A stretch of DNA of 56,586 nucleotides from a virus. Each line of letters starts with the position of its first letter. The stretch's first letter is position 1. This document shows positions 2-56,586 of the stretch, one piece after another. The DNA lies in IMG/VR virus record IMGVR_UViG_3300031565_000038, positions 1-56,586 of that record. One strand, 5' to 3'. Position numbers and translations under genes: made by a program. Below the pieces are notes generated by a model. The model saw only the letters and a list, made by a program, of their open reading frames with translations, was not told the DNA's origin and did no database searches.

Positions 2-127
2 CAATGCTTACTGTGTAGCTTCGTATTAAGTTTGTGCAAGTGTTTTAAAAATTTTTGCCCACGCACATCAGTTTTTTCAAAACTGTAAGGATTGCTGTAC
101 TGCATCATAGTTAGTTTTGTGGTTACT
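2..127. repeat. Terminal direct repeat, left copy
   Basis: These 126 bases are identical to 56461-56586. This shows that the contig ends overlap, so the molecule is circular in assembly, either circularly permuted or terminally redundant. The repeat contains the end of the methyltransferase gene, which is therefore present partly twice in the window. Confidence 0.97.
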
Positions 128-766
128 CCAAATTGCTTCCGTTGTTTTACTGTAAGCTCCCGATAAATCAATCATTGGTTTAAACGGTAGCCAGTCTGCC
201 TTTGTATTTTCACAAACAATTACTTGTCCATTTCTACTTTTACACCATTCTGCAAGTTTGATAAAATCAATATTTTTAGTACTTTCTCTATAATGCTCAC
301 CGCCAAATTGGTAAGGTGGGTCAATAAACCAAGTAGATTCTGTGTTTTCCAATTCTTCATAACTCCCGTTTATTATTGTCCAATGCTTTATTTTAAATAA
401 TTGTTTTGCTATTCTTTTTTTGTCACCTGATATATTGCTAAATTTTTGTACTATTTTTTGAGGCGATGCAATAGCTCCAGCAACCATAAAACCCATTAAT
501 AATTTTTCATCATCAGAAATATTAAAATCATCAATTGACTCTTTATATTTTGGTTCTGGTAAATTTAAAATATCTTTTTCCGTTGCTTTTTGTAGCCATT
601 TCCATATACGAATTATTTTTTCATATTTATCAACTATCGTAATATCATTCTGCCAATATTTCAAACTGTACCTTGCTGAACCTGCAAACGGTTCAATTAT
701 ATTTTTGTGCTTCGGTGGTGGATAGTAGTCCACAATCTTTGATTTACTTCCGTAATATGAAAACAT
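77..766 (-). CDS. D12-class (Dam-like) DNA adenine methyltransferase
   Basis: A 229-residue protein that should transfer a methyl group from S-adenosylmethionine to adenine N6 in DNA. Residues 25-30 (EPFAGS) fit the SAM-binding motif of D12 methylases, and DPPY at 149-152 is the catalytic motif. The N-terminal YYGSKSK also fits the family, though the protein is somewhat shorter than Dam. It may protect phage DNA from host restriction. The gene is the only one in its cassette and lies between the two widely spaced attC-like arms. Its last codons fall in the terminal repeat. The class is well supported; the target sequence is unknown. Confidence 0.83.
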   Translation of the reverse strand: MFSYYGSKSKIVDYYPPPKHKNIIEPFAGSARYSLKYWQNDITIVDKYEKIIRIWKWLQKATEKDILNLPEPKYKESIDDFNISDDEKLLMGFMVAGAIASPQKIVQKFSNISGDKKRIAKQLFKIKHWTIINGSYEELENTESTWFIDPPYQFGGEHYRESTKNIDFIKLAEWCKSRNGQVIVCENTKADWLPFKPMIDLSGAYSKTTEAIWSNHKTNYDAVQQSLQF

Positions 767-837
767 AAAAAATCCTCCCTAAAAATTTTTAAAACAAGAA
801 CATTCGTACTCGTATCGAACTGTATCGGTTATTGTCG

Positions 838-863
838 CACTGGTCATATACCCAACGTTAGCA
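838..863. repeat. attC-like right arm of the methyltransferase cassette
   Basis: The right arm (GGTCATATACC followed by CGTTAGCA) pairs with the left arm at 56442-56465 (TGCTAAC then GGTATATAACC). The two arms are separated by about 850 nt across the contig join and enclose the whole methyltransferase gene. Confidence 0.6.
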
Positions 864-869
864 GTAATG

Positions 870-1172
870 CTAAATAACCTCTAACCATGCTACTTTTTCT
901 TGTGTTAGCCAATTATGAGCAAATTTTGAAAGTGGGTAATTCTTTTCGGGTTCAGAATCACTATTTACATACAATCTTCCATGTTTACTTACAATTGTTC
1001 CTGTAATGTCTTTATCTCCACTTCTCATATATGAACGCTGATATGTTATAAATCCCTTTACTTTCATACCAACTTTCAAAATAATACCTTCTCTGTTAAT
1101 GAAAGCACTACTGCTAACAAGCGGTAATACGGCATTGCCTTGTGCTTCATGGATGATTTTTTCTGTGTTCAT
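870..1172 (-). CDS. Hypothetical cassette protein, 100 aa
   Basis: I do not recognise this 100-residue soluble protein. Its middle (VGMKVKGF, then ITGTIVSKHGRLYV) looks like a small beta-rich domain. It is the only gene of the cassette bounded by G/TT at 857 and 1238, with the start codon inside the attC-like loop and the stop close to the cassette start. No membrane segment or cysteine motif is seen. Confidence 0.6.
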   Translation of the reverse strand: MNTEKIIHEAQGNAVLPLVSSSAFINREGIILKVGMKVKGFITYQRSYMRSGDKDITGTIVSKHGRLYVNSDSEPEKNYPLSKFAHNWLTQEKVAWLEVI

Positions 1173-1244
1173 AATTTTGTTCTCGTATTTAAGTTATTAC
1201 TAATTTGATAGTTCGGCAACGACCGCATACCGCAGCCGTTAACT
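1112..1244. repeat. attC-like site
   Basis: Left core TGCTAAC, right core GTTAACT. The arms CGGTAATACGGCATTGCC and GGCAACGACCGCATACCG pair imperfectly. The loop holds the first codons of the 870-1172 gene. The bases before AAC (ACTACTGC) mirror the cassette start at 857 (GTTAGCAGTA). Confidence 0.75.
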
Positions 1245-1575
1245 ACAATTGCCGCTTATGGCAATCATCTGTTAAGTATTTTCCGCATTCGCAAAATCTA
1301 TCATTTTCTTTAGACGGTGAGAAATAATGCGGCAACAGATAGTTAACAGCAGATATATTTAATGCTTGTTTTTCGTTCTCATAGAAACTTTTGTAATCAT
1401 CAACATCAAATTCAGCAAGTCCATAACAATCAATTGCTAAATCATCTACCTGTTGTTGTGTTAAACATATTGATGTTTTACCCATTAGCAACATTATACC
1501 ACCGTGTCTTGCTTGGTATATGTTGAAATCTCCTTTATAGGTTGTGTCTCCTATTTGATAGCTGAATTTTCCCAT
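1243..1575 (-). CDS. Hypothetical cassette protein, 110 aa
   Basis: A 110-residue protein of unknown function. It ends in a Cys-rich tail (CECGKYLTDDCHKRQL), possibly one half of a metal site. The reading frame passes through the left arm of the attC-like site at 1341-1631, so about two thirds of the protein is encoded in the hairpin loop. It stops with TAG at the cassette start. Confidence 0.6.
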   Translation of the reverse strand: MGKFSYQIGDTTYKGDFNIYQARHGGIMLLMGKTSICLTQQQVDDLAIDCYGLAEFDVDDYKSFYENEKQALNISAVNYLLPHYFSPSKENDRFCECGKYLTDDCHKRQL

Positions 1576-1631
1576 TTTATTAAAGTTTTTTGTTATTAAA
1601 TCGCACTAAATATATCTGCATCCCGTTATAG
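1341..1631. repeat. attC-like site with coding loop
   Basis: Left core AGTTAAC with arm GCAGATATATTTAATGC. Right arm GCACTAAATATATCTGC with core GTTATAG. The 16-17 bp arms pair almost perfectly, and the roughly 240-nt loop carries the 5' two-thirds of the 1243-1575 gene. Confidence 0.78.
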
Positions 1632-1883
1632 TGAATTTCCCTCCCACACTACATTTGAAAATCTATCCATCCAATCTTTGGCTCTATTCATATTTTTTAT
1701 GTGCGTATTAACACGTTTTTTGGCTTCTTCAAACGTTTCACATATTACAGAACTTGGCTTAGTAAATCTACCAATCTGCATACTATTAATATTTAACCAT
1801 AAGCCAAAAATCTTATATTGTGCAGTAAAATAAGTTTCAGCAAATGGGTGCTGCCATTCTTTAATTCTATATTTAAGTTTCAT
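1626..1883 (-). CDS. Hypothetical cassette protein, 85 aa
   Basis: A small protein beginning MKLKYRIKEW, of unknown function. An upstream TTG would add nine residues, but the ATG at 1883 is preferred. The stop TAA is formed by the GTTATAG core at 1625-1631, so the gene ends exactly at the cassette boundary. Aromatic residues and a basic C-terminal helix are visible; there is no membrane segment. Confidence 0.6.
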   Translation of the reverse strand: MKLKYRIKEWQHPFAETYFTAQYKIFGLWLNINSMQIGRFTKPSSVICETFEEAKKRVNTHIKNMNRAKDWMDRFSNVVWEGNSL

Positions 1884-1914
1884 ATAATTTGTTTTGCCAC
1901 CGCTCAAAAACTCA

Positions 1915-2010
1915 CTATAACAAAGTGTAAAGTTTATAAGCCAGTGAAGTTTATATTCATTTAATCAAAGTCCGTGCGTGGCTTACAAAACCTTACACAA
2001 ACCGTTAGCA
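1915..2010. repeat. attC-like site, compact
   Basis: Left core CTATAAC, right core GTTAGCA. The arms GTGTAAAGTTTATAAGCCA and TGGCTTACAAAACCTTACAC pair over about 19 positions with single extrahelical bases, the classic attC layout. No gene lies in the loop. Confidence 0.82.
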
Positions 2011-2016
2011 ACAACA

Positions 2017-2172
2017 CTACGTCAGTGCATTTTTCAAAGCCTGTGTTATCCAATAACGAACCATACCCGATTTATTGGAAGAGCCGAAAAACTCTTTCGA
2101 TACTTTTATCAAGTCTTGTTCTTCTTTTTCTGTAAGCGATAATGTAACCGCCTTTGTTTTTTCTTTTGCCAT
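2017..2172 (-). CDS. Small ribbon-helix-helix-like protein, 51 aa
   Basis: It begins MAKEKTKAVTLSLTEKE and continues with an amphipathic helix ending in WITQALKN. The pattern is a short beta strand, two helices and many charged residues, typical of CopG/Arc-type DNA-binding proteins, so a repressor role is likely. The ATG overlaps the TAA of the upstream gene (TAATG), suggesting coupled translation. Both genes share one cassette, the only clear two-gene unit in the array. Confidence 0.6.
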   Translation of the reverse strand: MAKEKTKAVTLSLTEKEEQDLIKVSKEFFGSSNKSGMVRYWITQALKNALT

Positions 2173-2549
2173 TATTTTACGGTATTAATATCTACAGCTA
2201 AACCATCTTCTAACATTCCAAACACATCAAAATTATATTCAATAAGTCTTTTTACAACAACATAAGGTGCCCTATTATGCCAGTAAGCTCTTCCATATTC
2301 TAAATATTCATTATAGTAATATTCAAAGCTTGTAAAACCGAAAAAGTTATCTTTAAATACACCAATCTCACTACCAAAATCAACAGGTAATGTTTGCGTG
2401 TCTGTCAAAGGTCTTAAGATAGGTTTAAATCCTTTTTCTAAATGATAAGTTAAGTTTTCAGTTGTTAACTCTGTTTTCTTACCTACTGCATTTATAATAG
2501 ATAATGAGTGAGGCAAATAAGGTGCTACTTTTTCAAATTTAAGTTTCAT
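2172..2549 (-). CDS. Conserved Bacteroidota phage protein, 125 aa
   Basis: A 125-residue protein of a type common in Bacteroidota prophages. It begins MKLKFEKVAPYLPHSL, has KPILRPL in the middle, and ends with a FDVFG plus GLAVDINT pattern. Its function is unknown. A promoter-like TTTGG-N18-TATCTTTG lies just upstream (2587-2617) within the same cassette, so this cassette brings its own promoter. Confidence 0.7.
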   Translation of the reverse strand: MKLKFEKVAPYLPHSLSIINAVGKKTELTTENLTYHLEKGFKPILRPLTDTQTLPVDFGSEIGVFKDNFFGFTSFEYYYNEYLEYGRAYWHNRAPYVVVKRLIEYNFDVFGMLEDGLAVDINTVK

Positions 2550-2584
2550 AATCGTATGTATTAAGTTTTAATGCGTTATTGCTC

Positions 2585-2619
2585 TACAAAGATAGTAATT
2601 ATTTACTAATTACCAAATA
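2585..2619 (-). promoter_or_regulatory. Bacteroidota-type promoter in a cassette
   Basis: The minus strand reads TTTGG (2617-2613), an 18-base spacer, then TATCTTTG (2594-2587), which fits the Bacteroidota -33/-7 pattern. It lies about 40 bases before the 2172-2549 start codon. Confidence 0.55.
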
Positions 2620-2646
2620 AATATTGCAATGATTTTACCGTGCAGT

Positions 2647-2745
2647 TGCTAACACGTTGTATATGTCAGTTTTGCCAATTGGTTTTTGTGCTTTGAATGA
2701 AGTATGTGCGTGGCAAAACCGAACACATACAACCATTCGTTATGC
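2647..2745. repeat. attC-like site, compact
   Basis: Left core TGCTAAC, right core GTTATGC. The arms TTGTATATGTCAGTTTTGCC and GGCAAAACCGAACACATACA pair over about 20 positions. The stop codon of the next gene (2740-2742) is part of the right core. Confidence 0.84.
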
Positions 2746-3096
2746 CCCATTAAAAAGGCGTTTAAACTTAGCTTGTATATATTTGTCCAATTCTTTCCGT
2801 AGGGCTTTCTTGTCAATACCCTTAGTGTTATAAAATCGAAAAATAATTGAGTTTCTTACTTTACCATCTTTTAAGTAGCAAGTGTCCATTCCTATTTCCC
2901 AATTGCAATCTGTAAATTGTACAATTATTTTCTTACAGTGTGCTTTTAACGAACCATTGTATGCTTCTTCATAGTAAGCCCTACTTTCTCGCTGGTTAAT
3001 AAGTAAGTCCTGCTCTTTTGCAGTCATTGTCTCTACATTTATTCCTATAATTGTCTGCATATCGTTAATTAACAACGGGGCATAACAACGCATCAT
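2740..3096 (-). CDS. Hypothetical cassette protein, 118 aa
   Basis: It begins MMRCYAPLLINDMQTI. These first codons lie in the left arm of the attC-like site at 3080-3207, so the true start could be the Met at residue 13. The central part (CNWEIGMDTCYLKDGK) and C-terminal basic helix give no family match. The stop TAA is made by the GTTATGC core at 2739-2745. Confidence 0.6.
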   Translation of the reverse strand: MMRCYAPLLINDMQTIIGINVETMTAKEQDLLINQRESRAYYEEAYNGSLKAHCKKIIVQFTDCNWEIGMDTCYLKDGKVRNSIIFRFYNTKGIDKKALRKELDKYIQAKFKRLFNGA

Positions 3097-3207
3097 AAAT
3101 AATAGCGGTGTTGTGCTTATCCGTAGGTTTATAATATTAATTTACTGCTTCTCATCTTTATAATTTAGTGCGGTTAATCCGCTACTATTCATATGCCAAC
3201 GTTACCA
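3080..3207. repeat. attC-like site
   Basis: Left core GCATAAC, right core GTTACCA. The arms GCATCATAAATAATAGCGG and CCGCTACTATTCATATGCC pair. The start codons of the 2740-3096 gene lie in the left arm. The bases before AAC mirror the cassette start at 2739 (GTTATGCCCC). Confidence 0.82.
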
Positions 3208-3212
3208 CCCAT

Positions 3213-3497
3213 TTAAAGAAATTGCGGTGTAGGTATATCAAATCGCTTTTCTCGTGGCTCGCTATCATCGTAGTCACACTCTTTTAGTTTTGGTAAGTTA
3301 GGGTGCATTCCATCGTGTTTAATATGTTTATTGTATCGCTCGCAAATATGTGGGTACTTTTTACCATCTTCCACCTTGTCTTGTTCTCGCTCGGTTATGC
3401 TTAAATATTTGCATTTTCGGAAGCAAAAAACGGGTGGTAACAAAGGCTCATATTGCATAGCCTTGTCAGTTGTCGAAGTTTCATTCTTTTTTGTCAT
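3213..3497 (-). CDS. Hypothetical cassette protein, 94 aa
   Basis: Residues about 13-22 (KAMQYEPLL) are encoded by an attC-like arm and recur in the unrelated product of 9472-9852. Translation may start at the Met within that motif. The rest is Cys/His-rich (CFRKCKYL, then HICERY, then ECDYDD), suggesting metal binding. Function unknown. Confidence 0.55.
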   Translation of the reverse strand: MTKKNETSTTDKAMQYEPLLPPVFCFRKCKYLSITEREQDKVEDGKKYPHICERYNKHIKHDGMHPNLPKLKECDYDDSEPREKRFDIPTPQFL

Positions 3498-3564
3498 TTC
3501 AGTAAGTATTTAAAGTTTATATATTCAATCTAAAAGGCTACGCAACATAGCCAAACCGTTAGCA
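3435..3564. repeat. attC-like site
   Basis: Left core TGGTAAC, right core GTTAGCA. The arms GGCTCATATTGCATAGCC and GGCTACGCAACATAGCC pair. The left arm is translated as part of the N-terminus of the 3213-3497 product. The same left arm recurs at 9733-9760. Confidence 0.82.
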
Positions 3565-3565
3565 C

Positions 3566-3736
3566 TTATTTACCTCGCTGTACGCTCGGTTTTTTCTTTC
3601 CCTTTAATTTTTTTATCCTTCTTCTTATATCCTTATCATCATACCAATCAATAATAACTGGCATTATCACAACCATAATGGCTATGAATACGTATGCCCC
3701 TATAATTACATATACTAAATTATCTTTGTTCATCAT
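3566..3736 (-). CDS. Small membrane protein, 56 aa
   Basis: It begins MMNKDNLVYVIIGAYVF with one strong membrane segment (about residues 8-30), followed by a very basic tail (RRRIKKLKGKKK). It is likely an inner-membrane peptide with the tail in the cytoplasm. It is the only gene of its cassette; small membrane proteins are common in integron cassettes. Function unknown. Confidence 0.55.
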   Translation of the reverse strand: MMNKDNLVYVIIGAYVFIAIMVVIMPVIIDWYDDKDIRRRIKKLKGKKKPSVQRGK

Positions 3737-3782
3737 GTCAATATTTTTTTAAAAATTAAATGTTTCAATAAAAACCAATAAG

Positions 3783-3843
3783 TGCTAACGTCCTCTGTCT
3801 CGTTTCGCTGTAATTACCGCTCGGTAAACCCACTTCGTTAAGT
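3783..3843. repeat. attC-like site, short and degenerate
   Basis: Left core TGCTAAC mirrors its cassette start at 3558 (GTTAGCACTTATT). The right core is GTTAAGT at 3837. The centre forms a TTACCG-CT-CGGTAA hairpin, but the outer arms pair poorly, so this is probably a recombined or worn site. Confidence 0.45.
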
Positions 3844-4135
3844 GCTAACATAGTGTATAATGAATGACTTAGGCGAAACTCGTAATGAGGTTCTTGTTCT
3901 CAGTATTTAAAAGAAAATAAAATCTTTATTCCTTTTTTTCATACAAGCGGTGCAAATACTTTCGTCTTTTTTAACAATATATTTACCAGTTTCAACATTC
4001 CTAAATCCAGAATATCTAATATCTGCCTCAACACCGCAATCGGTACAATAATATTTTTTCTCTTTATTATCATTCATTATATTTTCTTTTAAATCCTTTC
4101 ACAATTCAACTCATTATACACAGAGGACGTTACCA
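3843..4135. repeat. attC-like site enclosing the 3907-4077 gene
   Basis: Left arm GTGTATAATGAATGA after TGCTAAC. Right arm TCATTATACAC before CGTTACCA. An 11-bp exact match is separated by about 250 nt, and the small zinc-ribbon gene lies wholly inside. Confidence 0.65.
3907..4077 (-). CDS. Small zinc-ribbon protein, 56 aa
   Basis: It has CTDC near residue 11 and CTAC near residue 42, a two-knuckle zinc ribbon. The gene lies entirely between the attC-like arms at 3843 and 4135. It probably binds nucleic acid or a protein partner; the role is unknown. Confidence 0.55.
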   Translation of the reverse strand: MNDNKEKKYYCTDCGVEADIRYSGFRNVETGKYIVKKDESICTACMKKRNKDFIFF

Positions 4136-4200
4136 ACAATTTGCCAGTAAAAAAGTGCATAAAACGAAACGTAAGTACTGGCAAACTGTACGCTTCGCTT

Positions 4201-4642
4201 TGGTAACAACTTGTATATTCTATGCGCTGTGCATAGAATCAGCGGATTCCTCCCCTATTGTCATTTCTTCTTTACAGTCTTTAAGCATATTTATAAAACT
4301 ATCTATACTTTCAACTTTGTTAAAAACAAAAACAAGTTCAGGTTGCATTTCATCAAAGCTTTCAACACTTGCTTTTTCAATAACGTTTATCGGTCTTGGT
4401 TCAGTTACTGTTTTCATAGCGAGTACTGTTTCGCCGTTTTCGCCTTTTTCAGATCCTAGCATCCAAACATCGCCAGTTCCCATTTCACAAACCATTACAT
4501 TTTTTGTTTTTCCGTAAGTTGCATTTTTTGTTATCATCTTGTTTTTGTTTTTGCCTACACACCGTATGCGAGCGGTTATACATTTATTTTAGTTTCGTGC
4601 GATCCGGTAAAGCGCACATAACATACAATTCGATCGTTAGCG
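4201..4642. repeat. attC-like site enclosing the 4220-4537 gene
   Basis: Left core TGGTAAC with arm CTTGTATATTCTATGCGCTG. Right arm AGCGCACATAACATACAATT with core GTTAGCG. The arms pair imperfectly across a 400-nt loop that contains the whole gene. Confidence 0.6.
4220..4537 (-). CDS. Hypothetical cassette protein, 105 aa
   Basis: An acidic 105-residue protein starting MITKNATYGKTKNV, with a beta-rich first half and an acidic helix at the end. No family recognised. It lies wholly inside the loop of the attC-like site 4201-4642, one of four genes nested this way. Confidence 0.55.
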   Translation of the reverse strand: MITKNATYGKTKNVMVCEMGTGDVWMLGSEKGENGETVLAMKTVTEPRPINVIEKASVESFDEMQPELVFVFNKVESIDSFINMLKDCKEEMTIGEESADSMHSA

Positions 4643-4861
4643 GTAATAAGTCACAGTATAATCTGTACCTTCTACTGCTAAATCACATCCTATTATTACT
4701 TTAGGTGGCTCAAATAATGGTGTGTGTTCTGGCATCTTAATATCACCATTTTCAAAGTGTTTTTGCATTTGTGCTATGCGGTTTAATTTACTACCGCTAA
4801 CAACAGGTAAATTGCATTGCTGCTTTCTACCATTAAATAAGTTTTTTATAAATTTCAACAT
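4637..4861 (-). CDS. Hypothetical cassette protein, 74 aa
   Basis: It begins MLKFIKNLFNGRKQQ, a basic amphipathic helix, and ends in a beta-rich GCDLAVEGTDYTVTYYR. The stop is formed at the cassette core (4636). The frame runs through the left arm of the 4795-4922 site. Function unknown. Confidence 0.55.
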   Translation of the reverse strand: MLKFIKNLFNGRKQQCNLPVVSGSKLNRIAQMQKHFENGDIKMPEHTPLFEPPKVIIGCDLAVEGTDYTVTYYR

Positions 4862-4922
4862 CTGTTCTATTTTTTAAGTTTTTACTAAATTCACGCAACG
4901 CAACTTACCCAAACCGTTATCG
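4795..4922. repeat. attC-like site
   Basis: Left core CGCTAAC with arm GGTAAATTGCATTGC. Right arm GCAACGCAACTTACC with core GTTATCG. The bases before AAC mirror the cassette start at 4636 (GTTAGCGGTA). The start of the 4637-4861 gene is in the loop. Confidence 0.8.
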
Positions 4923-4946
4923 ACAATGCCGCTGCGCTTGACGAAG

Positions 4947-5198
4947 TCAATCAGTTTGTTTAATCAAATACATCTTAAAACACTTACTACACCATTTATT
5001 ACCATAAACGTCCTCGCTATCAGATTGTGTACAATCACAAACCTCCTTTGACTTCTCATTGTCGATAACGTTCTCACTTTCATTTGTTGCTTGAGAATTA
5101 ATCTGAATGAAATTTATTGCTCTTACTTCATCAGATCGCATATTATCTACTCCTGGTAATCTTAAATACTTTTGGAATTCAATTAATTCTTTCTTCAT
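4947..5198 (-). CDS. Zinc-ribbon-like cassette protein, 83 aa
   Basis: The N-terminal half is helical; the C-terminal half has CDC near residue 54 and CSKCF near residue 72, a likely metal-binding pair. The role is unknown. The compact attC-like site lies upstream of the start at 5238-5322. Confidence 0.55.
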   Translation of the reverse strand: MKKELIEFQKYLRLPGVDNMRSDEVRAINFIQINSQATNESENVIDNEKSKEVCDCTQSDSEDVYGNKWCSKCFKMYLIKQTD

Positions 5199-5237
5199 TG
5201 TTTCAATTTTAAATTTGTACTACGCTTGCGACACAGT

Positions 5238-5322
5238 CGATAACACACTGTATATCGAAAGCAACTAAATGAATGACTTTCCGCAACTGCGTTGCTCACG
5301 TCATACAGTGAGAACGTTATGT
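5238..5322. repeat. attC-like site, compact
   Basis: Left core CGATAAC with arm ACTGTATATCGAAAGCAAC. Right arm GTTGCTCACGTCATACAGT with core GTTATGT. No gene lies in the loop. The bases before AAC mirror the cassette start at 4916 (GTTATCGACA). Confidence 0.82.
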
Positions 5323-5640
5323 GGCATTTAAGATATGATACTCGTTCGGAGTAAAATTCCATGCCACCGCACCATCTTTAAATTTGAGTTTGGCGCAATC
5401 AATATCTCTATCTCTGTAATGTTTTCCATTGTCATCATACTCACAATATCCAGTTTCTACAACCGTTGCAAGTTTTCCTTTATGCCTGTACAAATTATAC
5501 CTTGTGCAAACTGTTTGCCCAACCCTCGCACGAATTTTGTTTCTACCTATGAACCACCTGAAAGCGGATAAGTAAAAACGCCACATAACAATGTATATAG
5601 CAAATTTGCGAGCTTTTAAGAAAGTTTTTACTGTATTCAT
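5317..5640 (-). CDS. Hypothetical cassette protein, 107 aa
   Basis: The product begins MNTVKTFLKARKFAIYIVMW with a hydrophobic stretch, then a basic region, then a small beta domain (RVGQTVCTRY, KLATVVETGYC). The frame passes through the left attC arm, whose bases at 5580-5589 mirror the cassette start at 5316. It could be membrane-associated. Confidence 0.55.
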   Translation of the reverse strand: MNTVKTFLKARKFAIYIVMWRFYLSAFRWFIGRNKIRARVGQTVCTRYNLYRHKGKLATVVETGYCEYDDNGKHYRDRDIDCAKLKFKDGAVAWNFTPNEYHILNAT

Positions 5641-5708
5641 AATTTATCTCATTTAATTAAGTTTCTACTAATTTGGATGGCAAACTTGCCATATTCTCAA
5701 CGTTGTGT
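5583..5708. repeat. attC-like site
   Basis: Left core ACATAAC with arm TGTATATAGCAAATTTGC. Right arm GCAAACTTGCCATATTCTC with core GTTGTGT. The ten bases ending at AAC (GCCACATAAC) are the exact reverse complement of the cassette start at 5316. Confidence 0.82.
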
Positions 5709-5976
5709 GTAATTTAAAGAACCCGTAGGCTTATTTTAGCACGTGCCTACGGGAGCTCGTCCGTGCATCCATTTTGTTGTTGTAGCAGGTAATTCGTCAA
5801 TTATCGCTATTTCTGGGAATGTGATTTTAAACCCAATATCTTAATAAACTACACACAACAATTTATATAATTAATAGCTGTGGTAGTGGTTATTTTAAAG
5901 AACTATCATTTATTAAGCCTATGCAAATATATGAAAATTATAGCATTTAATACGCTACTAATCATATAAGTAGCCG
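5702..5976 (-). mobile_element. Geneless cassette with promoter and strong hairpin
   Basis: This unit has no intact gene. It holds a perfect 9-bp hairpin (CCCGTAGGC at 5722-5730 with GCCTACGGG at 5745-5753). It also holds an open frame without a start codon on the minus strand (about 5737-5838, product ending ...WMHGRAPVGTC) and a minus-strand TATATTTG at 5924-5931. It may act as a promoter or regulator cassette, or be a decayed gene cassette. Confidence 0.5.
5722..5753 (-). terminator. Strong hairpin, possible terminator
   Basis: Nine perfect base pairs close a 14-nt loop. On the minus strand the stem is followed by GTTCTTTAAATT, only a weak T tract, so terminator or structural use is uncertain. 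Confidence 0.4.
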
Positions 5977-5982
5977 TTGTAG
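5853..5982. repeat. attC-like site, compact
   Basis: Left core ACACAAC with arm TTATATAATTAATAGC. Right arm GCTACTAATCATATAAG with core GTTGTAG. The bases before AAC (ACTACAC) mirror the cassette start at 5702 (GTTGTGTGTA). The loop contains a promoter-like CAAATATA (minus-strand TATATTTG). Confidence 0.8.
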
Positions 5983-5992
5983 GCAATTTTGC

Positions 5993-6241
5993 TTAGTAAG
6001 TGCATTGCCCACCACATTTTCTACATTCACCTGTACCTGCTATCAAATCTTGCACACCATCGCATTCGCAAAACTGTTCGCTTTGCCCTACAACATTAGC
6101 TATACCCAATAATTTTAACTTAGCTTGGTGGTATGCTTCAAGGGCTTTCTCCGTATCGTTTACATCTGTTTGGAATTGTGGTGAATATTGCGTTGGCATA
6201 TTCGGTATTCCGTGTTCATCTAAAAATTCTTTTGCTGTCAT
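5993..6241 (-). CDS. Hypothetical cassette protein with Cys-rich tail, 82 aa
   Basis: It begins MTAKEFLDEHGIPNM, has a helical middle (ALEAYHQAKLKLLG), and ends with FCECDGVQD and CRKCGGQC, a likely zinc knuckle. The helical part is encoded in the attC-like loop and the Cys-rich part in the cassette body. Function unknown. Confidence 0.55.
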   Translation of the reverse strand: MTAKEFLDEHGIPNMPTQYSPQFQTDVNDTEKALEAYHQAKLKLLGIANVVGQSEQFCECDGVQDLIAGTGECRKCGGQCTY

Positions 6242-6293
6242 TTTTTCGTTTTTAAGTCGTTAAAATTACTGTACATAGCCTTAGCCGTTGTAC
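6088..6293. repeat. attC-like site with coding loop
   Basis: Left core CTACAAC with arm TTAGCTATACCCAATAATTT. Right arm AAATTACTGTACATAGCC with core GTTGTAC. The bases before AAC (GCCCTAC) mirror the cassette start at 5976 (GTTGTAGGC). The loop encodes the N-terminal half of the 5993-6241 product. Confidence 0.75.
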
Positions 6294-13580: not shown

Positions 13581-13637
13581 TTATCTGTAGTTTATATTTT
13601 TTTCGTTATGCAAAAAGTACTGTTATACGGTAGTTGT
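13581..13637. other. attI-like sequence, second copy
   Basis: Second copy of the 57-bp sequence at 55871-55927, again ending at the GTTG that opens a cassette (13633). The shared part begins TTATCTGTAG and includes GTACTGTTATACGGTAGTTG. Conservation at two separate array boundaries suggests a recombination site rather than a chance repeat. Confidence 0.55.
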
Positions 13638-14103
13638 GTGTAATACTACTTACTAAGCTCAATTAAGCAATTCTTTAGTATTTCAAACGCATCCTCTTGC
13701 GCTGCTTCTGTTGTGGAAAATCCAGCCCCACGCTCACTCGGTTCATGCAAGCTTTCTTCTAACACTTTCAATGCTTTTTCGGCAGCATCTTCTATTGCGT
13801 TATCCACACGCTCTTGCTCTTCAATTTCTTCCATAGCTATTCCATAACCTTCCCAGTTATCTACTCCAGCGCATTCCAACGCACGCATTTTAGATTCAAT
13901 CAACTCTAATTCTTTTAATCTACTTTTTGAAATTTCCATATCTATATTTTTTGTGGTTTAATAAACCGTACTACACACAACAATTTGTATAATTCAGTTG
14001 GCGTGTGTGCTTAGTCCAACTTTTGCACTTTTAATTTAGTTTATATCGGTTCGACAATTTAGTGCTATTAATGCCAACCGAAATCATACAATGGTCGTTA
14101 TAG
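13633..14103. mobile_element. Solo integron-like cassette next to an attI-like site
   Basis: It begins GTTGTGTGTA at 13633, mirrored by TACACACAAC ending at 13981. The attC-like site spans 13975-14103 with arm TGTATAATTCAGTTGGC paired with GCCAACCGAAATCATACA and right core GTTATAG. It carries the 13646-13939 gene and lies directly after the second attI-like copy. Confidence 0.78.
13646..13939 (-). CDS. Hypothetical cassette protein, 97 aa
   Basis: A very acidic, helical protein (ALEVLEES type repeats, EEIEEQERVD). No known family. It is the only gene of the cassette next to the second attI-like copy, with the stop seven bases from the cassette start. Confidence 0.58.
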   Translation of the reverse strand: MEISKSRLKELELIESKMRALECAGVDNWEGYGIAMEEIEEQERVDNAIEDAAEKALKVLEESLHEPSERGAGFSTTEAAQEDAFEILKNCLIELSK

Positions 14104-25257: not shown

Positions 25258-25280
25258 TAAAAAAGGGGCGTTAGCCCCTA
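25258..25280 (-). terminator. Intrinsic terminator after the lysis genes
   Basis: Minus strand GGGGCTAACGCCCC followed by TTTTTTATTT. It ends the operon that finishes with the spanin-like gene. Confidence 0.8.
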
Positions 25281-25305
25281 ATTCAACCAAACCAAAAAAC
25301 CAATA

Positions 25306-26733: not shown

Positions 26734-26829
26734 AATGTTTTGTTTAAAATTTATGTAAAGGTAAGGTTTTTTTGTTTGAAAATCAAATATTGGTATCTGT
26801 GGTGCATATATTCAGTAGTTACCACACAT

Positions 26830-27123
26830 TTAAGAGTATGGTTGGTCAAATCCGTAATCTTCGCCAAATTCCTTTTCAAATTTTAAAGTTGCGTGTTCTT
26901 CACAAGTGGCTTCTATTTCTTTGGTTTCTAATATACCATCACGCTTCCAGCAATCAAAGAAGAATAAACGTGTGGTAACAACAGGTATAGTTAAATTTTC
27001 AACTCGCTTTAGTGCAAAATCTACACCTGCTTGGAATCCATTACCAAAGTATGCGTTACTTCCTGCTTTTTTATAGGCTTCATCTATGCCTTTTACTATT
27101 TCTTTTTCTTCAATCTGTATCAT
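26830..27123 (-). CDS. Hypothetical cassette protein, 97 aa
   Basis: Mixed helical/beta protein (GFQAGVDFALKRVENLTIPV). First of two tandem cassette genes in front of the lysis module. The frame passes through the left attC arm at 26973. Confidence 0.55.
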   Translation of the reverse strand: MIQIEEKEIVKGIDEAYKKAGSNAYFGNGFQAGVDFALKRVENLTIPVVTTRLFFFDCWKRDGILETKEIEATCEEHATLKFEKEFGEDYGFDQPYS

Positions 27124-27181
27124 AATTTCTGTTCTTTTAAATCGTTAAAAATCAAACCATACCCAAACCGTTAGCCACCAT

Positions 27182-28798: not shown

Positions 28799-29131
28799 TT
28801 AAATTAAAACAAATCCATCACACAACAAATACAAAGATGCATCATGTATGTTCCCAAGCTTTATCAGCTCACCCTTTTCGTACCAAGCAGTTTTTAAGCT
28901 TATATTGTCTGGTTCATTATGCCAGCATACAGAACAGCTATCATCTGAGCTTAAGTCTTCTACAATTCCTATTATAAGTGGGTATTCCTTGGATGCAACA
29001 AATTCATGTAAGGTATAATGATTTGGCTCGTTATTGTGGTGGTTATAATATGTCTTACCCATGTAGTATGATTTTAAGTTTTTCTTAATTGTCAGTTTTT
29101 GATACTGGATTTTAAAGTCTTGTAGTTTCAT
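28799..29131 (-). CDS. Hypothetical protein, 110 aa
   Basis: CSVCWHNEP motif in the middle and beta-rich C-terminus. Its ATG overlaps the stop of the radical SAM gene, so probably works with it. Unknown function. Confidence 0.55.
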   Translation of the reverse strand: MKLQDFKIQYQKLTIKKNLKSYYMGKTYYNHHNNEPNHYTLHEFVASKEYPLIIGIVEDLSSDDSCSVCWHNEPDNISLKTAWYEKGELIKLGNIHDASLYLLCDGFVLI

Positions 29132-30138
29132 TTTTTTTGTAATAAAACATTTAAATAATTATAATCCTTACAGCATAAATCAATACATTCTTTAAAAGAC
29201 ATCAGTTCTATTCCTTTATAAAACGACCCTGTTTGTTCAACAACAGCAAAAGGTGCTGCTGAACCAATATTTTCCATATTGCTGTCAATTACTTTTTTTC
29301 CAAATAAATGATGTGTAATATTATACGTTTGTTCAATAAATCCATCCATTCCATCAACTCCACAGCAATTTAATGAATCTGACATATCACGAAGCCTGTT
29401 TTCGGCGCAATAAAATTTCAATCCTACATTGTAGCATTCAGCTTTTATTTCCTTAAAATCATCAATTAACACTTGTCTTGGAAAACAACAATCTGCACCA
29501 ACTTTCACAAGCCCATCTTTCATACTTCGCCATTTCATGCCCTCAATTATAATTCCATGAACACCTTGTTTTTTGTATTCTGATAAAATCTGCAATAAAT
29601 ATTCCTTAGATTCTAAAATATACGGTTGAACACGAATCAAAAGTCGTTTGCAATTCAATGATATTTCTTGCAAAGAATTTAACCTTTGATTATAAGTAGG
29701 TGCATTTGGTTCTATTTCGTCAAAATCAGGAGAAATCATAGAAATCTGAATAGCTACGTTCATATTAGAAATCAATTTTAAATCTCGCTTTAAAACATTA
29801 ACCCCTTTTGTTGAAATAATCAAAGGGTAGTCAGGTTTTGTTTTTTCAATATATTCTAAAACTTTTCGTGTTCTTTTTTCTATCTTTTCAATAGGTTGAT
29901 AAGGGTCCGATAATCCACCTATATGTATAGGTAATTCTCTAGAACACCATTTAGTAAATTCATTTCGCTCTCCATTTATCCAATTCTTAAACGAAATCCA
30001 TCCGCCACCGTTTTTAATTTTAGTAATATTATTCCCTCTTTTTGCAAAACAATATTCGCATTCATGCGAACATCCTTTATAAGTATCAAAATTCAATGGA
30101 TTGCTGCAATGCAATATCTGACTTCCAGTTTTTATCAT
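29128..30138 (-). CDS. Radical SAM protein (SPL-like), 336 aa
   Basis: Cys23, Cys27 and Cys30 (CSHECEYC) form the CxxxCxxC cluster motif, preceded by LNFDTYKG and followed by GGLSDPYQP, a pattern typical of SPL-like radical SAM enzymes. Extra cysteines (DCCFP, NCCGVDG) near the C-terminus could bind another cluster. The substrate is unknown; the neighbours on both sides are small unknown proteins that overlap it. Unlike the cassette radical SAM gene it is not flanked by attC-like sites. Confidence 0.78.
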   Translation of the reverse strand: MIKTGSQILHCSNPLNFDTYKGCSHECEYCFAKRGNNITKIKNGGGWISFKNWINGERNEFTKWCSRELPIHIGGLSDPYQPIEKIEKRTRKVLEYIEKTKPDYPLIISTKGVNVLKRDLKLISNMNVAIQISMISPDFDEIEPNAPTYNQRLNSLQEISLNCKRLLIRVQPYILESKEYLLQILSEYKKQGVHGIIIEGMKWRSMKDGLVKVGADCCFPRQVLIDDFKEIKAECYNVGLKFYCAENRLRDMSDSLNCCGVDGMDGFIEQTYNITHHLFGKKVIDSNMENIGSAAPFAVVEQTGSFYKGIELMSFKECIDLCCKDYNYLNVLLQKK

Positions 30139-30959: not shown

Positions 30960-31032
30960 ATATCTATTTATTTATAAAACGGGTACTCTGTAAAGTTTTC
31001 CCCTTCCCTTTTTTATTTAGTCTTTCAATTTA

Positions 31033-31063
31033 CAAATATACAAAAAAAGGGGCAAAGCCACAA
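31033..31063 (-). promoter_or_regulatory. Candidate promoter overlapping a terminator hairpin
   Basis: Minus strand TTGTGG (31063-31058), 17 bases, TATATTTG (31040-31033). The spacer includes a GGC-TTT-GCC hairpin with a T tract, so termination of upstream RNA and initiation of the 30693-30959 transcript may overlap. Confidence 0.5.
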
Positions 31064-31124
31064 TAATATATCATAACTGTAAATAATAGCAAAAACTGTA
31101 ATTATCTGCAAGCAAACTATCTTT

Positions 31125-31150
31125 AAATAAAAAAGGGGCGTTAGCCCCTA
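31125..31150 (-). terminator. Intrinsic terminator after the fibre gene
   Basis: Minus strand GGGGC-TAAC-GCCCC then TTTTTTATTT, the same hairpin and trailing sequence as at 25258-25280. Confidence 0.8.
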
Positions 31151-31173
31151 ATTCAACCAAACCAAGTATTATT

Positions 31174-33756
31174 TTAATTTAAAAATTCCTTGTCAAATGC
31201 TTTGTCGGCTTCCTTGAAAGCATCTGTAAAGCCATTGCGTTTGCCATTTAGCTTTTTGATCTCTTTTAAGTTATTCCTTAAGCAACGTTGCCACTCGTTA
31301 TAATTTATAATAGTATAAGCTCCGCTTGACAAACCCCATTTTGGTTGAATATCACATTGAATATTACTGAGTTCTGTATTATCTTTTTTAAGATCGCTTA
31401 CTGCTTTTTTCAGTTCGTCAATCTGCTCCTGCTGCTCCTGAATAGCTTTTATCATAACTGGGATCAGCTTGTTGTAATCCATCCCGTAGAAACTGTTGGC
31501 TTCATCCGTTGGCTCGTTAACCGCTTCTGGTATGATATCAAGAACCTCTTGTGCCACCAACCCGATCTCTTTTCTTTGGCTGTTCTTTTCGAGCTTTACT
31601 TTGCCGTTCTCTACGCTTCCAGAGAACCTTGTGTAGGATTTCGGCTTTAGCTTCATCAGCTCCGCAAGCCCGTAGCTTAACGGCTTTTGGTTTTTCTTTA
31701 GCCTGTTGTCGGAATAGGTCAGGTAAGAGCCGTCAATATACAGGTCGCCGTTGCCTTTTAAGATAAATTTTGTGCTAAAATTATTCTTCATAACTGTAAT
31801 ATTGTCATCGTCTGCAAATGATGTAACCCCCGTACCGCCATCTGTTTTATAAGAAACAAGGCTTATAATACCAAGAGATGATCCAGATTCTGTTTGACCC
31901 GCAGCTCCTGCATATCCTGATATTATAACAGCCGGTATTGTTTCTGTAAACCCATCTATACCGATACCGCCATTTGCCGTATTAGCTTTCTTTAACCCTC
32001 CCCACGTATCTGCTTCTGCAAAATCTGTGAAAAGATGTGCTACATCTGAGCTTTTCCCTGTAAATATAAACCCATCGGCAGCACCTTGGTTCAACGTTAA
32101 CCCACCTTTGTCAGCATCTGGGGCGGTTTCGTTTACCCCCAAAATATAATTTCCAGTTGAAAGCGTATCAACATCTAAAGTCCAATAATCGGTGGTAGAA
32201 GGAGGCTGCCATGTACCAGTGCCGCTGCCATCACTTGTAAGAACATAATCGTTCGTTGCCCCAGTGGGTAACTTGAACCCCGTCATTGTAGCAGTCCCGT
32301 TAACGTCAAGCTTTGAGGTTGGGGTTACGCCAATACCAAAATCGCCTTCTTTGCTCAGCGTCATTTTGATATCCATGTCAACCGCATCGCCAGCAGTGCC
32401 AGAAGCCTCCTCTGTCCTGAAGAAAATTGCACCGTTGCTGAACTGGAAGCCAGCCGTCCTGCCGTCCTCCAAAAGCCTTATATCGCCTCCGTTAAAATAT
32501 GAGTTTACGAACATGAACCCGTTCACGTCAGAAAATGACTGGGTGTTGAAAGAGCCGATAAGTTGTGTCGGCATGCTCGTTGTATGCCCGATATAGTGTA
32601 TCGGATAGATCGGGTCTGGGTTGTTTATCCCTAAATTGCCGTCCTTTATAACAACAGTGCTGTCAAATGCGCTGTATAAAGTATCTGCATCTAAAGTCCA
32701 GCCGCTAGCCGTTCCAGCGTTCCTATCAACATAAGCCTTTATAGAATCACCTCCGACCATGTAATTGGCTGCATTTTCCAAGGAAGCTGTTATGTTTGTA
32801 AATATAGTGTCTGCCAAAATACCTCCATTTACTTCTAACTTTTCATCTGGAATAGCAACCCCTATCCCAACGTTGCCAGTAGGCATTATCCACATCTTTT
32901 TTGTTGGTGGAGCGTTATCAGAAGTTGCAAAAGTTAGCATTCCTTTATTGCTCGACCCGTTTTTGTCGCCAGATATGTATGCAAGTATTTTATCTGGCTG
33001 TAAGTTGGCGGCAGCCATATTAGCAAAATTAACCCTGCCAAAAGGAAGGTCGTCACCTGCCAGTATTCCACCAATACGCATTTCCCCTGCCACATCAGAT
33101 GTAGTTTCGATTATATCTAGCATTTTTACGGGAGAAATTATATTTATTCCAAGACGGTCATTGACTTCATCATATGCTGACGTTCCAAAAAATATACTTC
33201 CCTTGGTTGCGTTAGTTGTACTTGAAATTGTTAAGTCGTCACCAACTTCAATGCCTCCTATTACCGATTGCCCACCATCTACACCAGTCGAAAGATCGGA
33301 TGTTACCGTGTTGACAGACCTTGTTAAGCCAGTACTGAATATGAGATCATCGCACGCTCCCGAATTGTTGTCGATGAACGTAAGCCAGTTAGCCCTGTTG
33401 ATATTCGTTGAAGTCGTGTCGATTAAACTCTGTACGATATCTTGGCTTATCTGAGTCAGATAATCCGCTGCCCCTGACAAAGTAACCGAGTCGTGCAATT
33501 GATCCGTGAACACGAACTCCATGAAATCAGTCCCGTCCACAATATTGGACAATGTTGTATCACCGTCTTGCGCCAACTTTATAAGGTACGCCTTCCATGC
33601 CGTCAAATCTATAACTATGTTCCCTCTTGAAGTAAAATCGGTAAACGGTGTTGTATTGTTGAATATCCTGTCCACCCTCGTTGTCGAAAGCTGCCCGTAC
33701 ATCCCTATGGTAGTAAAAAGAGCCACCGCCATCAATAATTTTTTCATTTTAATCAT
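31174..33756 (-). CDS. Tail fibre with Peptidase S74 chaperone, 860 aa
   Basis: A signal peptide-like start (MKKLLMAVALFTTIGMYGQ) precedes a long repetitive fibre body. Near the C-terminus, SDNRLKKNQKPLSYG and later KEIGLVAQEVLDIIPEAV are the Peptidase S74 intramolecular chaperone pattern, which trims itself after the fibre trimer folds. A coiled coil (QEQQEQIDELKKAVSDLKK) follows. Residues around 105-135 (ADYLTQISQDIVQSLIDTTS, NINRANWLTF) recur in the 33807-36908 fibre. A Sec signal on a virion protein is unusual. Confidence 0.8.
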   Translation of the reverse strand: MIKMKKLLMAVALFTTIGMYGQLSTTRVDRIFNNTTPFTDFTSRGNIVIDLTAWKAYLIKLAQDGDTTLSNIVDGTDFMEFVFTDQLHDSVTLSGAADYLTQISQDIVQSLIDTTSTNINRANWLTFIDNNSGACDDLIFSTGLTRSVNTVTSDLSTGVDGGQSVIGGIEVGDDLTISSTTNATKGSIFFGTSAYDEVNDRLGINIISPVKMLDIIETTSDVAGEMRIGGILAGDDLPFGRVNFANMAAANLQPDKILAYISGDKNGSSNKGMLTFATSDNAPPTKKMWIMPTGNVGIGVAIPDEKLEVNGGILADTIFTNITASLENAANYMVGGDSIKAYVDRNAGTASGWTLDADTLYSAFDSTVVIKDGNLGINNPDPIYPIHYIGHTTSMPTQLIGSFNTQSFSDVNGFMFVNSYFNGGDIRLLEDGRTAGFQFSNGAIFFRTEEASGTAGDAVDMDIKMTLSKEGDFGIGVTPTSKLDVNGTATMTGFKLPTGATNDYVLTSDGSGTGTWQPPSTTDYWTLDVDTLSTGNYILGVNETAPDADKGGLTLNQGAADGFIFTGKSSDVAHLFTDFAEADTWGGLKKANTANGGIGIDGFTETIPAVIISGYAGAAGQTESGSSLGIISLVSYKTDGGTGVTSFADDDNITVMKNNFSTKFILKGNGDLYIDGSYLTYSDNRLKKNQKPLSYGLAELMKLKPKSYTRFSGSVENGKVKLEKNSQRKEIGLVAQEVLDIIPEAVNEPTDEANSFYGMDYNKLIPVMIKAIQEQQEQIDELKKAVSDLKKDNTELSNIQCDIQPKWGLSSGAYTIINYNEWQRCLRNNLKEIKKLNGKRNGFTDAFKEADKAFDKEFLN

Positions 33757-55871: not shown

Positions 55872-55927
55872 TATCTGTAGTTTATATTTTGTTTGTTATA
55901 CAAAAAGTACTGTTATACGGTAGTTGT
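55871..55927. other. attI-like sequence before the main array
   Basis: This 57-bp stretch matches 13581-13637 with three mismatches. In both places it ends at the G/TT that opens the first cassette, which is where an integron primary recombination site (attI) lies. It also overlaps the start codon of the ribbon-helix-helix gene at 55662-55871. The attI role is inferred from position and repetition; no integrase is visible. Confidence 0.55.
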
Positions 55928-55938
55928 AGGTAATAAGC

Positions 55939-56046
55939 CTACTTGTATCGGTTCTTATGCTTTCCTTTTGGTTGTTTATACTCGCTCTTTTTATCAAGCA
56001 CTTTCACTATTAAAAACGCTGCTCCTATTGCTATTGCTCCAAACAT
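55939..56046 (-). CDS. Small membrane protein, 35 aa
   Basis: MFGAIAIGAAFLIVKVLDKK then a basic tail (PKGKHKNRYK). First gene of the first cassette of the array; ends with TAG. Likely an inner-membrane peptide of unknown function. Confidence 0.48.
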   Translation of the reverse strand: MFGAIAIGAAFLIVKVLDKKSEYKQPKGKHKNRYK

Positions 56047-56086
56047 ATCATTAAGTTTTAGTTATTAAATACGTAGGCTTACATAC

Positions 56087-56426
56087 CTACAACACTAAAT
56101 AAAAACCATAAAAATAAAACTACTTCCGGTTCTTTTTACGAGCTTTTTGCCTGCGCTCCCCACGTGTTTCGGGTAGTTTAGGTATCGGTTGTATAAGTTT
56201 CATATCTCTTTCCATGCTTGCTCCAAGTTCTTTAAGCCTGTCCACCTCACTTATAGCTTGTGGCACATCTCCAACAACAACTATCGGCACGTCTATTCTG
56301 GCTAATGCTTCAATTATGGCTACTTGCTCACCCGCCCCACAATGTGCGCCAATCAGTATCACTTTTGGTTTCTTTTCTGCTGTCATTCCGTTTTATTTTT
56401 ACAGGTTCTTATTAATCTCGTTAGCA
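56087..56426. repeat. attC-like site enclosing the 56120-56386 gene
   Basis: The left core CTACAAC at 56087-56093 and right core GTTAGCA at 56420-56426 are followed or preceded by matching arms (ATAAAAACC / GGTTCTTAT type pairing, with an AT-rich extension). The gene at 56120-56386 sits entirely in the loop. Confidence 0.6.
56120..56386 (-). CDS. Hypothetical alpha/beta cassette protein, 88 aa
   Basis: Begins PKVILIGAHCGAGEQVAIIE, then IDVPIVVVGDVP, a small alpha/beta fold reminiscent of Rossmann-like or TIR-like proteins but without a Walker A. C-terminal tail is highly basic (RRQKARKKNRK). The gene lies completely inside the attC-like loop 56087-56426. Confidence 0.55.
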   Translation of the reverse strand: MTAEKKPKVILIGAHCGAGEQVAIIEALARIDVPIVVVGDVPQAISEVDRLKELGASMERDMKLIQPIPKLPETRGERRQKARKKNRK

Positions 56427-56441
56427 AACATTAAAACGATT

Positions 56442-56468
56442 TGCTAACACGGTATATAACCAATGCTT
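56442..56468. repeat. attC-like left arm of the methyltransferase cassette
   Basis: The left core TGCTAAC followed by GGTATATAACC pairs with the arm at 842-860. The bases before AAC mirror the cassette start at 56420 (GTTAGCAAA). Confidence 0.6.
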
Positions 56469-56586
56469 ACTGTGTAGCTTCGTATTAAGTTTGTGCAAGT
56501 GTTTTAAAAATTTTTGCCCACGCACATCAGTTTTTTCAAAACTGTAAGGATTGCTGTACTGCATCATAGTTAGTTTTGTGGTTACT
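56461..56586. repeat. Terminal direct repeat, right copy
   Basis: Exact copy of 2-127. The cassette that begins near 56420 continues across the join into 1-857, so features near the window edges should be read as continuous. Confidence 0.97.

Follow-up and report, generated by a model that had tools for sequence, protein, structure and literature searches.

The left half of a phage genome, present in the virus record analysed here (56,586 nucleotides, referred to in its whole length as the window), very probably represents an integron-type cassette array, built of recombinase-moved units whose genes run against the polarity of their attC sites. Unit structure, polarity, gene inversion, a circular signature, shared cassettes with exact ends and the linkage to a recombinase and an attI-like site can all be read from the sequences of this phage and its relatives. 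The pattern is larger than the original prediction stated: other phages carry a recombinase gene and an attI-like site adjacent to such arrays. It is likely, on the strength of these sequences, that phages, probably of Bacteroidota, harbour a separate integron lineage in which a recombinase without I2 helix and patch moves hairpin-borne cassettes with inverted genes, which extend into the hairpin and are expressed by phage transcription. To our knowledge, integrons are treated as bacterial, with one integrase lineage and one gene orientation.

Results

The cassette array of the window

The virus was assigned to the phages by its portal, small terminase and tail fibre genes. The contig ends repeat 124 nt (4-127 = 56463-56586), hence the genome is probably complete with about 56.46 kb. 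The closest match of the portal is Rhodobacteraceae phage MD05 (39%); Polaribacter phage P12002L matches at 29%. The array extends from ~55.9 kb across the contig ends to ~27.5 kb, i.e. over the left half of the ~56.5 kb genome, and minus-strand genes alternate in it with sites of the form YTAAC|A-stem...stem-C|GTTA. A strict finder ([TC]AAC|A...stem...C|GTT[AG]) detected 21 sites of plus polarity vs 1 of minus polarity in the window. The sites and cassettes are listed below; own-end denotes the match of R'' to the left end of its own cassette, and shuffles the number of dinucleotide shuffles that equal the observed stem.

55923-56420 (+), cassette; left end G|TTGTAGG at 55923; R'' 56091, R' 56420; gene 56120-56386 (minus) wholly in loop; stem 17.1, shuffles 0/300, own-end 7/8
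56446-56586 (+), left arm and loop start of a long-loop attC-like site, continuing at 4-857
4-857 (+), remainder of the 56446 site; D12-type adenine methyltransferase gene 77-766 (minus) in loop; R' = GTTAGC at 857; stem 12.3, shuffles 0/300
857-1238 (+), cassette; ORF 870-1172 (minus); R'' 1116 (within ORF), R' 1238
1238-1625 (+), cassette; ORF 1243-1575 (minus), 2/3 of it in loop; R'' 1345, R' 1625
1625-2004 (+), cassette; ORF 1626-1907 (minus), stop = G|TTA; R'' 1919, R' 2004
2004-2739 (+), cassette; ORF 2172-2549 and a small ORF (minus); R'' 2651, R' 2739
2739-3201 (+), cassette; ORF 2740-3096 (minus), stop = G|TTA; R'' 3084, R' 3201
3201-3558 (+), cassette; ORF 3213-3497 (minus); R'' 3439 (within 5' end of ORF), R' 3558
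3558-4129 (+), cassette; composite site, R'' 3787 and 3847, R' 4129; gene 3907-4077 (minus) wholly in loop; own-end 8/8, shuffles 0/300
4129-4636 (+), cassette; R'' 4205, R' 4636; gene 4220-4537 (minus) wholly in loop; shuffles 4/300; own-end 5/8 ungapped, longer with a bulge
4636-4916 (+), cassette; ORF 4637-4861 (minus), stop = G|TTA; R'' 4799, R' 4916
4916-5316 (+), cassette; ORF 4947-5198 (minus); R'' 5242, R' 5316
5316-5702 (+), cassette; ORF 5317-5640 (minus), stop = G|TTA; R'' 5587, R' 5702
5976-6287 (+), cassette; ORF 5993-6241 (minus); R'' 6092 (within ORF), R' 6287
7551-7947 (+), cassette; ORF 7591-7803 (minus); R'' 7869, R' 7947
7947-8249 (+), cassette; ORF 7948-8193 (minus), stop = G|TTA; R'' 8053, R' 8249; stem 19.3
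8645-9460 (+), cassette; ORF 8646-9392 (minus), stop = G|TTA; R'' 9340, R' 9460
9927-10215 (+), cassette; R'' 10094, R' 10215
11853-12138 (+), cassette; ORF 11854-12075 (minus), stop = G|TTA; R'' near 12018, R' 12138; weak stem
13633-14097 (+), cassette; ORF 13646-13939 (minus); R'' 13979, R' 14097; own-end 7/8
26818-27170 (+), cassette; ORF 26830-27123 (minus); R'' 26977, R' 27170; own-end 7/8

Besides the seven genes listed with a stop codon formed by the TTA that follows the G of the R' core, gene 8250-8624 ends in the same way. Four genes had been predicted to lie wholly between the arms of a hairpin, and tested against 300 dinucleotide shuffles each their stems proved real: no shuffle equalled the observed stem at the sites with R' at 857, 56420 and 4129, and four did so at 4636. 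The longest of these sites (R' 857, R'' 56446) comprises 870 nt spanning the contig ends and encloses gene 77-766, the product of which matches Pfam MethyltransfD12. For gene 3907-4077 the inverted arms held up, and the left arm turned out to be composite, with two R'' cores (3787 and 3847) that both bear the own-cassette end. In a combined test (stem score of at least 11 and own-end match of at least 6/8), 22 R' cores passed in the cassette region and none in the structural region of the window genome (31.5-53 kb), which argues, together with the own-end signature, against arms paired by chance.

The window contains no PF00589 recombinase by profile search and no attI-like sequence was found in it, hence its array may be inactive. 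Several of its sites are degenerate, with weak stems or a composite R''. Lacking a recombinase, the window taken alone would be filed as a CALIN-like array, having at least two clustered attC sites, as judged with a purpose-written finder in place of IntegronFinder or HattCI, and no integrase. Viral probes with the portal protein and two cassette proteins returned zero or only two weak relatives, so that the cassettes of the window could not be traced individually.

In three cassettes of the window, the circular junction of the cassette itself recurs as an exact inverted copy of 22 nt (3777-3798, 5057-5078 and 7683-7704), composed in all three of 13 nt of the left end and 9 nt of the right end. 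Inverted junction copies reach at most 15/18 in all of ~490 other cassettes, and 22-nt copies occur in the window only. A near-identical attC left arm (TAACAAAGGCTCATATTGCATAGCCTTGT) is found in two different cassettes (3436-3466 and 9734-9764) with differing right arms; it also codes for the same stretch near the protein N-terminus in both. Near-identical terminator-like hairpins (ggggcgttagcccc) are located at 25261-25300 and 31131-31165. Their CGTTAG is a chance occurrence that could be taken for an attC core; CGTTAG at 25269 and 31139 was rejected as attC, being part of these G+C-rich hairpins. Two radical-SAM proteins of different subfamilies are encoded at 6494-7363 and 29128-30138, the former with a weak viperin-like match (E 6e-8, far below cut-off).

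Cassettes carry the signature of a circular unit

Arrays in further records were discovered by a pattern scan (CGTTANNNNNCATTTAAAG), the listed matches of which included many chance contigs. In the arrays, the sequence complementary to an R'' is found at the left end of the cassette to which this R'' belongs, and not in the core opposite it in the hairpin, as exemplified by GTTATGCCCCATT (2739) and CGGGGCATAAC (3084). In 467 cassettes from 98 loci, an own-end match of at least 7/8 was present in 52%, the corresponding figures being 0.6% with the facing core and 1% in random pairs. Complementarity of R'' to the far left end of the same unit is expected if the unit circularises and its two ends form one attC.

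Identical cassettes in different contexts point to the same unit. Two different phages share 315 nt at 100% identity between differing flanks (L126 2999-3313, L191 3313-3627), L232 (313-706) and L264 (7392-7785) share 394 nt at 100% identity, located at attI in L264, and L207 contains an internal duplicate of 721 nt (100%); all three blocks have G|TT at both ends (coordinates of L126, L191, L232 and L264 in the orientation of the comparison script). Among 18 distinct near-identical blocks, the left end coincides with CGTT in 6 and the right end in 6, chance being ~5%, and the others end elsewhere. Of 822 homologous blocks, 262 have their right end near R' and 50 near R''; left ends are less informative, only 37/822 being near R'. 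By these sequence signatures, attC hairpins, a G|TT cut and circularising cassettes as known from integrons are present.

The cassette pool comprises 431 distinct proteins (median 89 residues, 347 clusters), mostly small orphans; about one quarter of 70 mostly large cassette proteins scanned are DNA methyltransferases. Conserved bases outside the cores are common to all arrays, GTTANNN(g)CAATT at the left end and AACTGNNNTAAC at R'', forming a longer R box followed by conserved unpaired AAT/AAC.

Genes are inverted and overlap the hairpins

Site polarity is nearly uniform, with 610 sites in majority orientation vs 7 opposite at the 98 loci. The longest ORF runs against attC polarity in 444/458 cassettes of this set, a count not composed entirely of independent cases since the loci partly overlap (L246-L257 lie within L258-L271, and L004 mirrors L073) and some are duplicated. 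In loci found via the recombinase alone, a set sharing some contigs with the attC-found one, inversion affects 181/187 cassette genes (181:6). Chromosomal IntI integrons of Bacteroidota, analysed with the same script, gave 13 genes with and 5 against polarity, thus the inversion rule is not an artefact of the method. These IntI arrays were taken as controls because the site finder yielded zero sites in TJE1, the first 50 kb of H101 and a Vibrio phage, rendering these unusable for the purpose.

With gene starts located towards the hairpin, the 5' part of a coding sequence overlaps with attC arms and loop, up to the extreme case of a gene enclosed entirely by the loop. In the 444 inverted cassettes, the TTA of G|TTA serves as stop codon in 97, the start codon is located in the loop between R'' and R' in 167, and R'' lies inside the ORF in 163. 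A whole ORF in the loop is rare (4/444 by automatic count, one of the four in the window), the window with its four such sites being richer than its relatives. The original prediction of minus-strand genes opposed to attC polarity, of stops often formed by the GTTA core and of starts in the loop thus extends to the relatives; the proposal that the hairpin contains or shares coding sequence is supported as well, with the fully enclosed gene as its uncommon extreme. The Bacteroidota promoter motif TAnnTTTG occurs at one offset in only 27/464 hairpin sites, which does not support a promoter in every attC.

When both strands were folded, the bottom strand (of plus polarity) was more stable in 365/387 sites, as expected of attC. 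In bacterial arrays with genes facing the other way the bottom strand is still favoured in 22/26 sites (22:4). The bias is the same despite opposite gene sense and thus tracks recombination polarity, not mRNA. Independently of folding, polarity is fixed by the identical shared cassettes, which begin and end at G|TT. Hence, read from sequence, the cut core, strand stability and the position of the recombinase (see below) all give one polarity.

Related phages encode a recombinase beside an attI-like site

A tyrosine recombinase is encoded in 15/40 records (39 array-bearing viral records and the window, which has none). The array is located at the 5' side of the recombinase, pointing away from it, in 13/15 fetched regions; one exception stops at the contig end, the other has a fragmented recombinase. 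Searching IMG/VR by recombinase alone returned 152 relatives, of which 80 were kept, with enough sequence at 52 loci. attC-like sites were present on the 5' side in 51/52 of these, and sites of opposite polarity in none. An attI-like site, TATATATAATA|GTT, was identified in 54 loci; its AT-rich consensus, ttATATATaATA|GTTA, is joined to the first cassette, mostly 36-73 nt before the start codon of the recombinase, and matches the R'' of this cassette. An attI beside the integrase, as in integrons, is therefore found in relatives and not in the window.

The phage recombinases consist of ~265 residues and, in 30 recombinases, R132, K157, H216, R219, H242 and Y251 are invariant. With these RKHRH-Y residues and their Xer-like sequence they belong to the Xer type, their best matches being XerA and IntI4 (Xer structure 4a8e, E 3e-47); a predicted model of moderate quality (pTM 0.60) likewise best matches XerA and IntI4. 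The IntI4 structure 2a3v aligns to the phage recombinase in two pieces, skipping the IntI insertion. This insertion of ~31 residues (the patch) is absent from the phage recombinases. As the integron-integrase insertion has been called essential for integron function (Smyshlyaev et al. 2021, PMC8138268), action of the phage enzymes on a folded strand is not assured. In the phylogenetic tree, 13/14 phage recombinases form one clade (100/96) among patch-less Bacteroidota recombinases, separate from IntI (100/100) and from XerC/D. The remaining one (L246) comes from a second branch; relative to the recombinase, its array (L258) is of the same polarity as the others. An IntI with patch (I2 helix) is thus found neither in the window, which has no integrase, nor in its relatives, which lie outside the IntI clade.

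Bacterial counterparts

Matches of the patch-less clade are present in 82/247 sampled genomes of the phylum Bacteroidota. In several genomes, the recombinase gene is followed, beyond its stop codon, by an array of the same attC type that has an attI-like junction and genes with polarity. Unlike in the phages, attI and array of these bacteria are thus located 3' of the recombinase stop and the genes follow attC. The exact phage attC pattern was detected in 118 viral stretches vs 7 genome stretches. Four of the seven (L239, L240, L242 and L245) have normal gene direction, in L243 and L244 most genes are inverted and gene density suggests phage contigs, and the seventh contained no site above threshold.

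L360, L368 (Gaetbulibacter sp. 4G1) and L370 are chromosomal integron-like arrays beside patch-less XerA-like recombinases, with genes in normal direction. They have a related recombinase and the same own-end signature as the phages, and L360 and L368 also the same attC type (ACCGTGTATAA..CATACAC). The attI-like junction of L368 reads tgtatatatacaa|GTTGGC (TATATATACAA|GTT). These arrays may represent an overlooked class of bacterial integrons.

Discussion

The units of the array each span the distance between two successive CG|TT cores (R') and carry a small gene together with an attC-like imperfect hairpin (R''-L''...L'-R') at the right end. We infer that an Xer/IntI-like tyrosine recombinase would bind the folded bottom strand of this hairpin and cut at G|TT. 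The cassette would be excised as a circle and inserted at other attC-like sites and, in recombinase-encoding phages, also at attI just upstream of the recombinase gene. In classical integrons, cassette genes use the Pc promoter; the phage cassettes would presumably be expressed by leftward phage transcription running on into the recombinase gene. For the window phage, the recombinase would be supplied in trans by another phage or by the host. Alternatively, the window array may be a relic kept by selection on its genes, and possibly inactive.

The hairpins might act as RNA, as 5' leaders, terminators or processing sites of phage mRNAs unrelated to recombination. Their position between co-directional genes, the starts often lying in the loop and the better folding of the bottom strand, which is mRNA sense in the phages, would all fit such a role. 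We consider it extremely improbable and rejected it on the strand test, since the bottom strand remains favoured (22:4) in bacterial arrays of the same attC type with opposite genes. Moreover, G|TT marks the ends of cassettes found identical in different phages, an RNA leader leaves unexplained why outer arms match the far end of their own cassette, and an Rfam search of the window matched no family. There is scarcely any probability that polarity was read backwards, with the true cut at the AAC (R'') core and genes in normal direction. The best-defined shared blocks of 100% identity end at G|TT, right ends of homologous blocks are near R' more often than near R'', and the attI junction adjoins the recombinase at G|TT; a cut at R'' would split the genes of the 163 cassettes in which it lies inside the ORF. 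All this weighs against such a reading despite the near symmetry of the hairpin and an own-end pairing that by itself fits both directions.

An ordinary CALIN, in which cassettes from an IntI integron of the host are kept in the phage, is a natural thought as CALINs are known from phages, including the related P12002L (PMC9892861), and IntI is present in 106/395 sampled genomes of the phylum. It is highly unlikely here: block transfer would invert sites and genes together and not genes against sites, the host IntI arrays seen differ in their stems (AAGGCGTTTTAAATC) and contain genes of mostly normal direction, occurrences of the exact phage attC pattern are predominantly viral, and related phages have their own recombinase clade beside the array. 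It is also unlikely, in our opinion quite strongly so, that homologous recombination between repeated attC stems, and no site-specific recombinase, accounts for the shuffling of cassettes. Exact G|TT ends with unlike stems on either side require a site-specific cut, and so does the conserved linkage of attI and recombinase. Arguments for homologous recombination are the near-identical repetition of some stems in a single array (L053) and the missing recombinase of the window phage; in that phage such recombination may still take place.

An integron-type array of inverted cassettes thus remains the preferred reading, and phages appear to own a widespread version of the integron with its own recombinase clade, attI and cassette pool. 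This pool, mostly small unknown proteins and DNA methyltransferases, would provide phages with a built-in trade of accessory genes. The patch and I2 helix have been tied to single-strand attC recombination (PMC8138268 and, for the I2 helix, eLife 2020, PMC7790495), so that a recombinase without them makes the need for the helix directly testable. Tools based on the IntI patch would probably call such arrays CALINs or miss the recombinase.

Comparison with known systems

A literature search, with preprints and many subscription papers outside its scope, retrieved no description of arrays with patch-less recombinases or of a phage lineage with inverted cassettes; priority is therefore not certain. 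CALINs in phages have been reported, including those of P12002L and Tetrasphaera phage TJE1 (Qi et al. 2023, PMC9892861). In that study IntI1 acted on 5/6 phage sites with a preference for the bottom strand, and an attC of Polaribacter phage P12002L was among those recombined, again with the bottom strand preferred. Like the window, these virulent phages carry methyltransferase cassettes, and attC sites without an integrase. P12002L is a relative of the window by its portal and shows the same layout in the gp37 region (core pair 30952/31118, minus-strand gene 30965-31255). The reported phages differ in having few sites each, the attC sites of P12002L were read as having divergent directions, and no phage recombinase lineage, attI or gene-inversion rule is described there (PMC9892861).

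In Treponema integrons, intI is reversed and co-directional with the cassettes; it is transcribed toward attI, and the cassettes lie beyond in normal direction (PMC3607928). Recombinase and cassette genes are likewise co-directional in the phages and in the patch-less bacterial arrays. The phages differ from Treponema in that the array is upstream of the recombinase and the genes run against attC. With classical IntI integrons, the phage arrays share attC hairpin geometry, the G|TT cut, circular cassettes and an attI at the 5' end of the recombinase with the array pointing away. IntI integrons, unlike these arrays, possess the ~31-residue patch, form a separate clade and have genes mostly with attC (13:5). 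The wider class is thus integron-like and departs from classical integrons in two defining features, the IntI patch and the direction of the cassette genes.
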